Translations under genes and position numbers: made by a program | The notes under the pieces: generated by a model | What the model was told of the DNA's origin: nothing | The model's database searches: none | What the model saw: only the letters and a program-made list of their open reading frames with translations | Origin: Fundidesulfovibrio magnetotacticus | Lineage (GTDB): Bacteria; Desulfobacterota; Desulfovibrionia; Desulfovibrionales; Desulfovibrionaceae | Length of the DNA stretch: 64,000 bases | NCBI RefSeq assembly: GCF_013019105.1 | Contig: NZ_BLTE01000009.1 | Location: forward strand, 1-64,000 | Reading direction: 5' to 3' | Shown here: positions 27,718 to 31,425 of the stretch, one piece after another | Layout: the number at the start of each line of letters is the position of its first letter | Position numbering within the stretch: position 1 is the stretch's first letter

Positions 27718-27735
27718 TGTAGGACGCGTCCTACC
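27718..27735. promoter_or_regulatory. palindromic operator upstream of the kinase gene
   Basis: TGTAGGACGCGTCCTACC contains a perfect 16-base dyad (27719-27734). It has the 18-base layout of known GacA/UvrY response-regulator boxes (TGTAAG, six bases, CTTACA). A close copy lies at 29674-29691 beyond the regulator gene, and both end exactly 25 bases before a candidate -10. It is probably a binding site for the regulator encoded at 29046. Confidence 0.6.
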
Positions 27736-27737
27736 GG

Positions 27738-27766
27738 TTCGCAAGCGGCGCGGTTCCTGGTAGTCT
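27738..27766 (+). promoter_or_regulatory. candidate promoter of the kinase/regulator operon
   Basis: A weak -35 TTCGCA (27738-27743) and -10 TAGTCT (27761-27766) are 17 bases apart. The palindrome ends two bases upstream of the -35, an activator-like position. Confidence 0.4.
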
Positions 27767-27804
27767 GAGGCCATGCCCTGCACGCCCGCCACGAGGGAGC
27801 GCCC

Positions 27805-29049
27805 GTGAAGCGTCTTCCCGCCCGCCTCGCAACACGCCTGCGGCTCTCGGTCGGCGCGCGCCGACTGCGCGAGCGCCTGGCGGTCTTCCGCACGGTGGCC
27901 GACGGCACCTACGACTGGGAACTCTGGATCGGCCCGGCCGGGGACGTGCGCTACGTCTCGCCCTCCTGCCTGCGGGTCACGGGCAGGCCCGCCGAGGCCG
28001 TGCGCGCCGAGCCGGACTTCTTCCGGCGATCGATCCACCCCGAGGACTATCCGGCCTGGCGCCGACTCATGGAGCAGAGCCTCCAACGCGACGTGCCTTC
28101 CCTGGATTTCCGCATCCGACGCCCCGACGGGGCGCTGGTCTGGCTGGCCCAGGAGACCACCCGCGTCTTTGGTCCTGACGGCTCCTTCAAAGGCCTGCGC
28201 CTGAGCCTGCGCGACGTGACCGACCGCGTGAGCGCCCAGCAGGCGCTGCGCGAGGCCCACGAACGGCTGGAGGAGCGCGTGCTCGAACGCACGGCCGAGC
28301 TGGACCGGGCCAACCGGGAGCTGCGCACCGAGATCCGCCGGGGCAACCGCACCCGCAGGGAACTTGAGCGCTCCCGCGAGCGTTTCCGCAGCCTCTCCAC
28401 CTACCTCCAGCAACGCATCGAGGAGGAGCGCACGCGCATCGCCCGCGAAATCCACGACGAACTGGGACAAAACCTCACGGCCTTGAACATGGGCCTCTTC
28501 AGCCTGGAAACGCCTCAGGCACGTACCGACCCGCAACGCATCGCCGCCCTTCGCGCGATCGTGGCCGGAACGGTGGAGAGCGTGCAGCGCATCGCCCGGG
28601 AGTTGCGCCCGGCCATTCTGGACGAGCTGGGTCTGGCCGAGGCCGTGGCCTGGCGCGCGCGCACCTTCCAGGAGAGCTCGGGCATCGCCGTGGGCGTGGA
28701 GACAGGCCCCGGCATCACGGGGGTGACGCCCGAGGTCTCCACGGCTCTCTACCGTGTCTTTCAGGAGGGGCTCACCAACGTGGCCCGTCACGCCGGGGCC
28801 ACGCGTGTGCGCGTGCGCCTGACGCGCTCCCGGGGACGCCTGCGCCTGGAAGTGGCCGACAACGGCCGGGGCCTGGACCCCAAGGCCCTGGACGCGCCCG
28901 GCTCCCTTGGGCTCACGGGCATGCGCGAGCGCGTCCGCGCGGTGGGGGGGCGCATGGACATCGGGGCCGCGCCCGGCGGAGGCACGCTCCTCTGCGCCAA
29001 CGTGCCCGAGAGGGTGCCCCGCGCCGGAAGGCGCAAGGTTTCCCCATGA
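27805..29049 (+). CDS. PAS-domain sensor histidine kinase (HisKA_3)
   Basis: This 414-residue kinase of the NarX/DesK type has a PAS domain (about residues 28-145, with DWELWIGPAGDVRYVSPSCL and the PAC-like LRLSLRDVTD). A long charged coiled coil follows (about residues 150-205), then HisKA_3 with the phospho-accepting H217 in AREIHDELGQNL, and a HATPase with VFQEGLTNVARHA, VADNGRGL and GLTGMRERVRAVGG. No membrane segment is seen, so it probably senses a cytoplasmic signal through PAS; the ligand is unknown. The GTG start has GAGGGAG five bases upstream. It overlaps the regulator gene by 4 bases. Confidence 0.88.
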   Translation: MKRLPARLATRLRLSVGARRLRERLAVFRTVADGTYDWELWIGPAGDVRYVSPSCLRVTGRPAEAVRAEPDFFRRSIHPEDYPAWRRLMEQSLQRDVPSLDFRIRRPDGALVWLAQETTRVFGPDGSFKGLRLSLRDVTDRVSAQQALREAHERLEERVLERTAELDRANRELRTEIRRGNRTRRELERSRERFRSLSTYLQQRIEEERTRIAREIHDELGQNLTALNMGLFSLETPQARTDPQRIAALRAIVAGTVESVQRIARELRPAILDELGLAEAVAWRARTFQESSGIAVGVETGPGITGVTPEVSTALYRVFQEGLTNVARHAGATRVRVRLTRSRGRLRLEVADNGRGLDPKALDAPGSLGLTGMRERVRAVGGRMDIGAAPGGGTLLCANVPERVPRAGRRKVSP

Positions 29050-29666
29050 CTCGACCGCGCCGCGTGCTGGTGGTGGACGACCACGCCGTGGTGCGCCGGG
29101 GCGTGGTGGACATCCTGGCCGCCGCCCTGCCCGGCTGCTCCTTCGCCGAGGCCTCTGGCGTGGCCCTGGCCCTGGCCGCCCTGGAGGACCCGTACGACCT
29201 GGCCGTGCTGGACATCTCCCTGCCCGACGGCAGCGGGCTGGATCTCCTGGAGTGGATCGCCGTCAACCGGCCGGGGCTGCCCGTGCTGGTGCTCAGCATG
29301 CACCAGGAGGCCGAGTACGCCCGCCGCGCCCTGGCCCTGGGGGCCAGGGGCTACCTGGGCAAGAACTCCGCCCCTCGGGAGCTTACCGAGGCCCTGGCCT
29401 GCGTCCTGGAGGGCCAGACCTACGTGAGCCCGGGCCTCTCCCCCGGCCTCGCGCCGCGTCAGGACCCCCTCGCCGCCCTTTCCCGGCGCGAGCGCGAGGT
29501 AATGCGCCTTCTGGCCCAGGGCCGCACCGTGAGCGACATCGCCCGCGACCTGAACCTCTCGGTGAAGACCGCCAGCACCTACCGAAGCAGGATCATGCGC
29601 AAGCTGGGCCTGCGCACCGCCGCTGACTTCTACCGCCGCGCCCTCACCATGGGGCTCATGGACTGA
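29046..29666 (+). CDS. LuxR/NarL-family response regulator
   Basis: This 206-residue regulator has a receiver domain with the acidic pair DD11-12, phospho-acceptor D56 in VLDISLPDGSG and K106 in GYLGKN. It is followed by a LuxR-type helix-turn-helix beginning LSRREREVMRLLAQGRTVSDIA and including LSVKTASTYRSRIMRKL. It is encoded 4 bases inside the kinase gene's end and is almost surely its partner. The two palindromes flanking this gene pair have the shape of sites bound by GacA/UvrY regulators, so autoregulation and control of the genes at 29762 onward is likely. Confidence 0.9.
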   Translation: MTRPRRVLVVDDHAVVRRGVVDILAAALPGCSFAEASGVALALAALEDPYDLAVLDISLPDGSGLDLLEWIAVNRPGLPVLVLSMHQEAEYARRALALGARGYLGKNSAPRELTEALACVLEGQTYVSPGLSPGLAPRQDPLAALSRREREVMRLLAQGRTVSDIARDLNLSVKTASTYRSRIMRKLGLRTAADFYRRALTMGLMD

Positions 29667-29673
29667 CCCCGCC

Positions 29674-29691
29674 TGTCGGACGGTTCCGACA
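29674..29691. promoter_or_regulatory. palindromic operator downstream of the regulator gene
   Basis: TGTCGGACGGTTCCGACA has perfect 7-base arms around four bases. It differs from the box at 27718-27735 at five of eighteen positions and keeps its symmetry. It begins 7 bases after the regulator stop codon and ends 3 bases before a candidate -35. Confidence 0.6.
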
Positions 29692-29694
29692 AAG

Positions 29695-29722
29695 TTGTCC
29701 GCGCCGGACGAGCCGCTATGGT
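29695..29722 (+). promoter_or_regulatory. candidate activated promoter of the 48-residue gene
   Basis: TTGTCC (29695-29700) and TATGGT (29717-29722) are 16 bases apart. The predicted start near 29729 would place the palindrome centre at about -46, the usual position for an activator touching RNA polymerase. Confidence 0.45.
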
Positions 29723-29761: not shown

Positions 29762-29908
29762 ATGATCGCAACCCTGACCGCACTGCTGGCCATCGCCGCC
29801 CTGCTCGCCGGACTGGCCATGGGCCGCGTCGTGCGCCGGTCGGCCCGGCGCGAACGGCTCCCGCGCGACTTCGATTTCGGCCTCTACAAGCGCACGGAGC
29901 CCAAATGA
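29762..29908 (+). CDS. 48-residue single-pass membrane protein
   Basis: The short gene encodes an N-terminal transmembrane helix (TLTALLAIAALLAGLAMG), then a strongly basic stretch (RVVRRSARRERLPR) and a polar end (DFGLYKRTEPK). The positive residues after the helix predict a cytoplasmic C terminus. GGAGGT lies about six bases upstream of the ATG. Its stop overlaps the next start (ATGA, 29905-29908), so the two are coupled. It is the first gene after the second palindrome and its promoter. I do not recognise the family. Confidence 0.6.
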   Translation: MIATLTALLAIAALLAGLAMGRVVRRSARRERLPRDFDFGLYKRTEPK

Positions 29909-30435
29909 ACACGGTACGTTCCACGTCCAGACCGGCCCCGGATGCCGACATCCTGGCCCGGGATAACCCGGATTTCTTCGACTTGCTCTTCGATCCCGCC
30001 TGGCTGGGCATCCCCGCCGGGACCCCGGCTTCCGGCCGTGCCCTGACGCCCTCGGGGAGCTTCGTGGAGTTTTTCGTATCCGTTGTGGACGGGAGCATCC
30101 GCGAAGCGGGTTTTCTCACGGACTGCCCGCCATCGGCCTCCACCCCCGTCATGGCCTTGGCCTCGCTCTGGTGCGGGAGGGCGCGCGGGCTCACGCCGGA
30201 GCAGGCCGCCCGGCTGGAGGCCGAGGACATCCTGGCGTGCGGCATGGAGCCCCTGGACACGGCCCGTGCAGCGGCCGAAACCTGTCTGGCGGCCGCGCGA
30301 ACGGCGTTGGTCCGGGCAGCCTTGGTCCAGGAATGCGACGACGGGGCCCGCCCCCCCGGATGCTCCCCGGAATGCGCCGCGAAGCGCTCGCATCCCGGAC
30401 GATCCGCCGGACCGGCCTCCCCGCGCGGCGGGTGA
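29905..30435 (+). CDS. IscU/NifU-N-like protein with incomplete cysteine set
   Basis: The protein has 176 residues. About residues 30-135 resemble the iron-sulfur scaffold fold of IscU/NifU. FVEFFVSVVDGSIREAGFLTDC aligns with the IscU strand that ends in its second cluster cysteine, and a helix with ARGLTPEQA follows. The first scaffold cysteine (IscU ACGD region) is replaced by ALTPSG, and no HCS-type third site is clear. It may bind a metal differently or not at all. The last 35 residues are proline/arginine-rich and poorly conserved in appearance. It is coupled to the 48-residue gene by ATGA. Confidence 0.45.
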   Translation: MNTVRSTSRPAPDADILARDNPDFFDLLFDPAWLGIPAGTPASGRALTPSGSFVEFFVSVVDGSIREAGFLTDCPPSASTPVMALASLWCGRARGLTPEQAARLEAEDILACGMEPLDTARAAAETCLAAARTALVRAALVQECDDGARPPGCSPECAAKRSHPGRSAGPASPRGG

Positions 30436-30486: not shown

Positions 30487-31425
30487 ATGATCGCCGTCCG
30501 CTTCCACAAGGGAACCATGGAGCTGGCCGACTTGCCGCAACCGCCCCCCGGGCCTGGAGAGGCCCTGGTGCGCGTGCTGGTGGCGGGGATCTGCAATACG
30601 GACCTGGAATTGTTCAAGGGATACATGAACTTTTCCGGGACCCCGGGGCACGAATTCGTCGGCGTGGTCGAGCGCGCCCCGGACGCCCCGCACCTGGAAG
30701 GACGCCGCGTCACGGCCGACATCAACGCCGCGCCGGGGCACGGCGACCACCGCCACGCCTCCGGCAGGCGCGTCCTGGGCATCCTCGGCTGGGATGGAGC
30801 CTTCGCCCAATACATCCTCGCCCCGGTGGACAACCTCCACGCCGTGCCCGACACGCTCTCCGACGAGGCCGCCGTGTTTGCCGAACCCCTGGCCGCGGCC
30901 CTGGAGGTGGGCCAGCAGGTGCACATCCGCGCCACCGACCGACTGGCCGTGCTGGGCGACGGCAAACTCGGGCTGCTCATCGCCATGGCCCTGCGCCACC
31001 TCTGCCCCGGGCTCGTGCTTTCGGGCAAACACCCGGACAAGCTGGCCATCGCGTCCGCACAGGGCGTGCGCACAACCCTAGCGTCCGACATCGCAGGCCC
31101 CTTCGACATCGTTGTGGAAGCCACTGGCCGCACCCAGGGCCTGGAAGCCGCCCTGGACCTCGTGCGCCCCGAAGGGACCGTGGTGCTCAAGTCCACCACC
31201 GAGGCCAAGACGCCAGTGAACCTCGCCCGCGTGGTGGTCCAGGAGATCACCCTCGTGGGCTCGCGCTGCGGCGACACGGCCCTGGCCCTGGACCACCTGG
31301 CCCGGGGCCTGGTGGAACCTTCCGGCCTCGTGGAGGCCGTCTACCCCTTGGAGCGCTTCCGGGAAGCCTTCGAGAGCGCCGCGCGCCCCGGCGCCAGGAA
31401 GGTGCTGGTGCGCGTCTCCCGCTGA
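30487..31425 (+). CDS. zinc-type alcohol dehydrogenase (MDR) lacking the structural-zinc lobe
   Basis: This 312-residue medium-chain dehydrogenase has catalytic-zinc residues in GICNTDLELFKGY and GTPGHEFVGVVE, a nucleotide-binding segment RLAVLGDGKLGLLIAMAL, and a close with PLERFREAFE. The four-cysteine structural-zinc loop usual in this branch is replaced by INAAPGHGDHRHASG, with no cysteine, and the protein is shorter than the roughly 340-residue norm. The substrate is unknown; related enzymes act on alcohols or polyols. AGGAGG lies ten bases upstream of the ATG. Confidence 0.75.
   Translation: MIAVRFHKGTMELADLPQPPPGPGEALVRVLVAGICNTDLELFKGYMNFSGTPGHEFVGVVERAPDAPHLEGRRVTADINAAPGHGDHRHASGRRVLGILGWDGAFAQYILAPVDNLHAVPDTLSDEAAVFAEPLAAALEVGQQVHIRATDRLAVLGDGKLGLLIAMALRHLCPGLVLSGKHPDKLAIASAQGVRTTLASDIAGPFDIVVEATGRTQGLEAALDLVRPEGTVVLKSTTEAKTPVNLARVVVQEITLVGSRCGDTALALDHLARGLVEPSGLVEAVYPLERFREAFESAARPGARKVLVRVSR

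Follow-up and report, generated by a model that had tools for sequence, protein, structure and literature searches.

A conserved palindrome abutting the promoter of a small-protein/IscU-fold operon is a probable site of the adjacent NarL-type response regulator in Fundidesulfovibrio magnetotacticus

Results

Genes and promoter elements at the locus

The window analyzed here is a stretch of 64,000 nucleotides of Fundidesulfovibrio magnetotacticus DNA, to which all coordinates refer. On its forward strand, a gene for a sensor kinase with PAS, HisKA_3 and HATPase_c domains (27805..29049) is followed by one for a NarL-type response regulator with Response_reg and GerE domains (29046..29666). Scores for HisKA_3 and HATPase_c in the kinase and for Response_reg and GerE in the regulator all exceed the Pfam gathering scores, and the pair is a NarL/LuxR-type two-component system. 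Three further genes follow on the same strand. The first (29762..29908) encodes a protein of 48 amino acids that has a conserved C-terminal LPRDFDFxxYKRxE motif and an N-terminus judged by eye to be hydrophobic. Profile search, structure modeling and Foldseek assign the second product (29905..30435) to the IscU/NifU-N fold, with most of the cluster-ligand residues replaced; the start of this gene overlaps the end of the small-protein gene through an ATGA. The third gene (30487..31425) belongs by Pfam to the alcohol dehydrogenase family. Although a preliminary description of this DNA had counted the dehydrogenase among the co-regulated genes, a tblastn search of 20 related loci finds no match for it, and it probably lies outside the regulated unit.

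The same description had reported two matching palindromes at equal distances from two promoters, and both are present, TGTAGGACGCGTCCTACC at 27718-27735 ahead of the kinase promoter and TGTCGGACGGTTCCGACA at 29674-29691 behind the regulator gene, neither being assigned to a strand. Exactly 25 bases separate each dyad from its -10-like hexamer, TAGTCT (27761-27766) upstream and TATGGT (29717-29722) downstream, as had been claimed. The spacing to the -35 elements is likewise borne out, with TTCGCA (27738) starting 2 bases past the upstream dyad and TTGTCC (29695..29700) 3 bases past the downstream dyad, both promoters reading on the forward strand. In the proposed kinase promoter (27738..27766), TTCGCA and TAGTCT are 17 bp apart. 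Provided that the two -10 elements are right, both dyads would be centered at -46.5.

A reading frame of 11 codons (27773-27808) starts with an ATG 6 bp past the putative kinase -10, and its TGA overlaps the GTG start of the kinase gene; in several orthologs the corresponding ATG shares the reading frame of the kinase. When inspected by eye, several orthologs have the kinase ATG 5-6 bases past a -10-like hexamer, which suggests leaderless kinase starts and supports the placement of the kinase -10.

Conservation of the downstream dyad and its promoter geometry

Orthologs of the regulator in relatives are 51-63% identical to the protein in the window. We compared 16 other orthologous kinase/regulator loci, comprising ten larger loci (site exact in 7, with one mismatch in 1) and six that were added, and TGTCGGA-N4-TCCGACA is present at 14 of the 16, exactly in 11 and with one mismatch in 3. 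The regulators of these site-bearing relatives are merely 54-63% identical to that of the window. No site is found at the two exceptions, L123 (genome G074) and L128 (G025), and the IscU-like gene is likewise without a match at both, the L123 contig stopping about 2.2 kb past the regulator. As for chance, in shuffles of the 95-bp region that holds the downstream dyad, an exact match occurs in 0/4000 and a match with at most one mismatch in 2/4000.

A TTG starts 3 bp past the dyad at all 15 regulator-linked sites, the window included. Two genomes, G046 and G134, have a second exact site away from the pair, again with TTG at 3 bp and with TATGGT at 25 bp. All 17 of these sites have the TTG at 3 bp. 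The comparison script demanded both TGTC and TTG, so that these two features carry weight at the 15 linked sites alone; those had been located without the TTG condition, and all 14 from relatives reappear in the comparison. A reverse-orientation match at L119, a palindrome with TTG on its other side too, was left out. The base immediately after the dyad is A at 17/17 sites. A TATNNT lies 25 bp past the dyad in 9/17; in place of a clean TATNNT, the remaining 8/17 show less good matches to a -10 element at 25-27 bp.

Across the 15 loci, the dyad lies between 3 and 259 bp past the regulator stop codon, at 11 of them 3-8 bp past it. This variation, together with the fixed spacing to the TTG, indicates that the dyad is part of the promoter that serves the following genes. 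The same observations bear on whether the dyad might act as RNA, in the form of a hairpin or terminator behind the regulator gene. Its seven-pair stem and four-base loop, lying so close to the stop codon at 11/15 loci, would suit such a role. No T run follows the downstream dyad in the window, however, and its position is tied to the promoter rather than to the stop codon; moreover, the arms are nearly invariant, and at three loci one arm alone is altered, so that a base pair is lost. We therefore regard an RNA element as very improbable. A position that adjoins the -35 at a fixed spacing, as is found here (3 bp at 15/15 linked sites), is that expected of class II activators, and there is strong support for the downstream dyad as a conserved site, probably of class II, at which the neighboring NarL-type regulator would act.

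Co-occurrence of site and regulator across the order

We surveyed 348 genomes of the order for the site followed by NNNTTG with at most one mismatch, and for regulator orthologs with a cut-off of E up to 1e-44. The site pattern occurs in 23 genomes and the regulator ortholog in 17. Fifteen of the 17 genomes with the regulator have the site, compared with 8 of the 331 that are without it. A reversed-pattern control matches 9/348 genomes, so the eight regulator-free genomes correspond to the background level. When the exact palindrome alone is sought, it is found in 11/99 genomes as against 2/99 for the control. Eight of these 11 genomes have it at the kinase/regulator locus and one at a second target (G046); the exact sites in the other two (G084 and G020) overlap reading frames and were taken to be chance matches.

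The preliminary description had placed a regulator site before the small-protein and IscU-like genes, and the conserved sequence, the promoter position and the co-occurrence with the regulator lend it support as a probable site. Because inheritance links the regulator to both the site and the operon, co-occurrence alone is no proof of which protein binds, and this linkage leaves some room for a different DNA-binding protein, such as a LurR/NrfR-like sigma-54 activator, to read the dyad while the adjacent regulator acts elsewhere. In its favor, the quoted LurR sites GTCTGCAATGTCGGAC and GTCCATTTTTTCAGAC, inverted repeats of 16 bp that end in GTC/GAC, share the inner 16-bp frame of the dyad (PMC6456213). 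The string 'tgtcgga' occurs once in that paper, within a LurR site; it is absent from the main text of PMC3333781. The abstract states that LurR and its sites are conserved across the order (PMC6456213), and a site that falls to background wherever the NarL-type regulator is absent would be unexpected for such a factor. On this ground the adjacent NarL-type regulator is tentatively favored over LurR. Furthermore, the quoted LurR sites lie approximately 250-400 bp upstream of the start codon of sigma-54-dependent genes (PMC6456213), whereas the downstream dyad abuts a -35 element, and the g25 genomes, which have distant homologs of the small protein but no regulator ortholog, do not have the site with TTG. 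Reading of the dyad by a LurR-type protein is accordingly given only a small chance.

The sequence VKTASTYR is found in the predicted recognition helix of 12/12 regulators with an exact linked site, and VQTAGTYR in the three loci at which the site reads TGTCTGA. VTTASTYR occurs in G074, where there is no site. The covariation between helix and site, which is based on few lineages, has exceptions; the second site is still exact in G046 and G134, and no site accompanies the VKTASTYK of G025.

Second targets and searches for further sites

Approximately 0.7-0.8 kb downstream of the second sites in G046 and G134 lies a gene for another small protein with FNFDRYK, behind a TraR/DksA-type zinc-finger gene, this assignment being a Pfam match for the G046 copy and a likeness judged by eye for the G134 copy. 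It may thus be the small-protein genes, and not the IscU-like gene, that the targets have in common.

In the F. magnetotacticus genome itself, TGTNGGACGNNTCCNAC with no mismatch finds only the two dyads, and TGTNGGANNNNTCCNACA with no mismatch finds the downstream dyad and C18:77654. With at most one mismatch, TGTNGGANNNNTCCNACA matches 13 places compared with 5 for the reversed-pattern control. A wider regulon in this genome was considered on the basis of these 13 places and rejected; the ten that remain after setting aside the two dyads and C9:32846 were read by eye, with an open reading frame list for the stretch that holds two C18 places only, and they are without the -35/-10 layout and mostly look like coding sequence. 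TGTCGGAN4TCCGACA with 2 mismatches is matched 23 times in this genome and the control 18 times, which is no clear signal. The place at C18:77654 (L176, 3655, in G000) reads TGTGGGACTTTTCCCACA and adjoins a stretch that resembles a tRNA gene by eye, together with an integrase-like frame.

A loose dyad definition applied to 80 loci yields 15 dyads, one of them at L039, the same locus as in G046, against a mononucleotide-shuffle mean of 6.4. Loci of more distant regulators (L050, L057, L060, L066, L084, L091 and L102) have dyads resembling TGTAGGA-N4-TCCTACA or of the TGTAAG/CTTACA type. A preference shared within the family would agree with TGTAAGAAAACTCTTACA in L102 and with the dyads resembling TGTAGGA-N4-TCCTACA that lie close to some betaproteobacterial regulators. 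In G002 (L120, near 2759 and 4693, as reverse-complement offsets), another, AT-rich element, ATATTCATGTTTT...CGACACG, is located near both promoters that flank the pair.

The upstream dyad

When no more than 2 mismatches are allowed, TGTNGGACGNNTCCNACA is matched 6 times in the window (palindromes being counted on both strands) against a shuffle mean of 0.29, an enrichment that is overstated because the pattern was derived from the two dyads themselves. The upstream dyad has 3 mismatches to the ortholog consensus TGTCGGAN4TCCGACA. Among dinucleotide shuffles of the 358-bp upstream region, at most 3 mismatches to this consensus are seen in 58/5000, and in 10/5000 when equal symmetry is also demanded; for the looser form of the motif taken from the preliminary description, a match with at most one mismatch arises in 1/4000 shuffles. 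A chance origin of the upstream dyad is by these measures unlikely.

Its conservation is another matter. The 350 bp before the kinase gene contain no stretch with at most 3 mismatches at any of the 16 orthologous loci, including L128, where the kinase is longer than the query and a rescan of 1501-2500 gave nothing under 5 mismatches. Comparison with relatives, as had been suggested, thus divides the two palindromes, the downstream one being kept at 14 of 16 loci and the upstream one being found at none. The symmetric change that had been noted at inner bases affects the fourth base (C to A), a position that is C in 15/15 regulator-linked sites, and the upstream dyad departs from all of them. 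The proposed autoregulation of the kinase/regulator operon consequently receives no support from conservation.

These observations can be weighed in several ways. It may well be that the upstream palindrome arose by chance or serves another factor, as its absence from relatives would lead one to expect; a perfect 16-bp palindrome occurs in 107/4000 shuffles of the upstream region, and the window has four such palindromes. Its rarity on the looser motif, which nearly all shuffles fail to equal, and a distance to the -10 that is the same as that of the downstream dyad both speak against such an origin. Given that no dyad is present at the 16 orthologous kinase promoters, autoregulation through the upstream dyad would have to be lineage-specific, and we entertain it tentatively, for this genome alone, on the strength of the shared -10 distance. 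The model originally put forward, in which one regulator acts on both dyads to control its own operon and the downstream genes including the dehydrogenase, draws on this same 25-base distance, with the common center at -46.5 that would follow from it, and on the low frequency with which shuffles reproduce the upstream dyad (10/5000). We consider this full model rather unlikely in view of the 0/16 count at orthologous kinase promoters, the altered fourth base, and the missing dehydrogenase matches in related loci.

The small protein and the IscU-fold protein

The wider small-protein family extends to 38/348 genomes at E 0.01, many of the matches being weak. At eight loci of this wider family, no shared dyad is found upstream in seven, the upstream side of the other (L241, in reverse orientation) not being covered. 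In g25 genomes (L239, L240, L243, L244, L245 and L248), the small proteins have FDFDxYK...RGxFDKTxW tails, with several matches per genome in some, and these loci have neither a regulator ortholog nor a shared dyad.

A profile built from 12 IscU-like members finds NifU/IscU structures (best hmmsearch E 3.1e-8). The structure model of the window protein has a mean pLDDT of 80, and its best Foldseek match is the IscU structure 7c8m_A (E 1.8e-8, TM by target 0.80). One ortholog passes the Pfam NifU_N threshold (25.0 vs 22), although the window protein itself has no Pfam match. According to the structure model, the fold is that of IscU. In the HMMER alignment, the first Cys of 7c8m faces Cys in 1/12 members, its Asp faces Asp in 1/12, and its second Cys faces an invariant Pro in 12/12; the His-Cys pair faces other residues, yet 9/12 members have a Cys a few residues further on. 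We take the aligned Cys, Asp, Cys and His-Cys positions of IscU to be the cluster ligands. Most of the ligand residues of IscU/NifU-N are therefore not conserved in this family, and a scaffold function for the IscU-like protein is doubtful. Other residues are invariant in the family (29905-30435 in the window), namely FDP, GFLT and AS..C.

Discussion

We think it likely, on the basis of comparative sequence analysis, that a dedicated kinase/regulator pair activates the small-protein/IscU-fold operon through the downstream dyad. The site itself is observed, as are its conservation, the fixed spacing to the -35, and its tendency to occur in genomes that have the regulator; two genomes also have a further site of like design ahead of a paralogous small-protein gene. 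Kinase and regulator (27805-29666) would together form a two-component system responding to a presumed signal, and the phosphorylated NarL-type regulator would occupy the dyad (29674-29691) as a dimer. Centered at about -46.5 from the predicted transcription start and directly beside the -35 element, the bound regulator would recruit RNA polymerase in a class II-like manner for transcription of the genes for the small membrane protein and the IscU-fold protein.

More speculatively, and with a probability that we put low, this may be a dedicated module of Desulfovibrionaceae and relatives, its sole or main target being a membrane-anchored small protein with the LPRDFDFxxYKR tail together with its IscU-fold partner. 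Instead of serving as a scaffold, the partner could be an adaptor or decoy in Fe-S assembly, with cysteine desulfurase as one conceivable point of action. The analysis provides a precise candidate DNA site and target operon for a NarL-type system that belongs to none of the named families tested, and it links this system to a family of short membrane proteins and to an IscU-fold protein without most of the cluster-ligand residues. It also illustrates that matching dyads by sequence alone can be right at one promoter and unproven at the other.

A literature search of titles and the beginnings of abstracts found no paper on this two-component system. The nearest NCBIfam models for the regulator include MctR, UhpA and UvrY/SirA/GacA, all far below their cut-offs. 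Like GacA/UvrY (SirA), the regulator is of the NarL/LuxR type and is paired with an 18-bp palindrome of the form TGTNNG-N6-CNNACA with TGT/ACA ends (PMC4682653), so that the resemblance to GacA/UvrY sites noted in the preliminary description holds for the 18-bp frame; it does not extend to the regulator family, the score against NF007018 being 106 bits compared with a cut-off of 280, or to the position of the site. The UvrY consensus is given as TGTAAGN6CTTACA, with the csrB site lying approximately 180 bp upstream, at about -183 (PMC4682653), whereas here the inner bases are CG in place of AA and the site adjoins the -35. Moreover, protein-coding genes follow the site instead of a Csr/Rsm sRNA, and the kinase shows just PAS, HisKA_3 and HATPase domains in Pfam, unlike the GacA/UvrY system. 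MctR/MctS and UhpA/UhpB supply the best NCBIfam models for regulator and kinase, but the scores are below the cut-offs (MctR 134/300, UhpA 109/258, MctS 152/700, UhpB 120/408), and there is no transporter among the seven proteins of this locus that were scanned with Pfam. The quoted LurR/NrfR sites of Desulfovibrio resemble the downstream dyad in the frame GTC..G-N6-C..GAC, which corresponds to its inner 16 bp (PMC6456213), and differ in that the dyad is located beside a -35-like element with a NarL-type regulator adjacent to it. Finally, the IscU-like protein shares its fold with the IscU and NifU N-domain scaffolds, from which it is set apart by the replacement of most ligand positions across its family.
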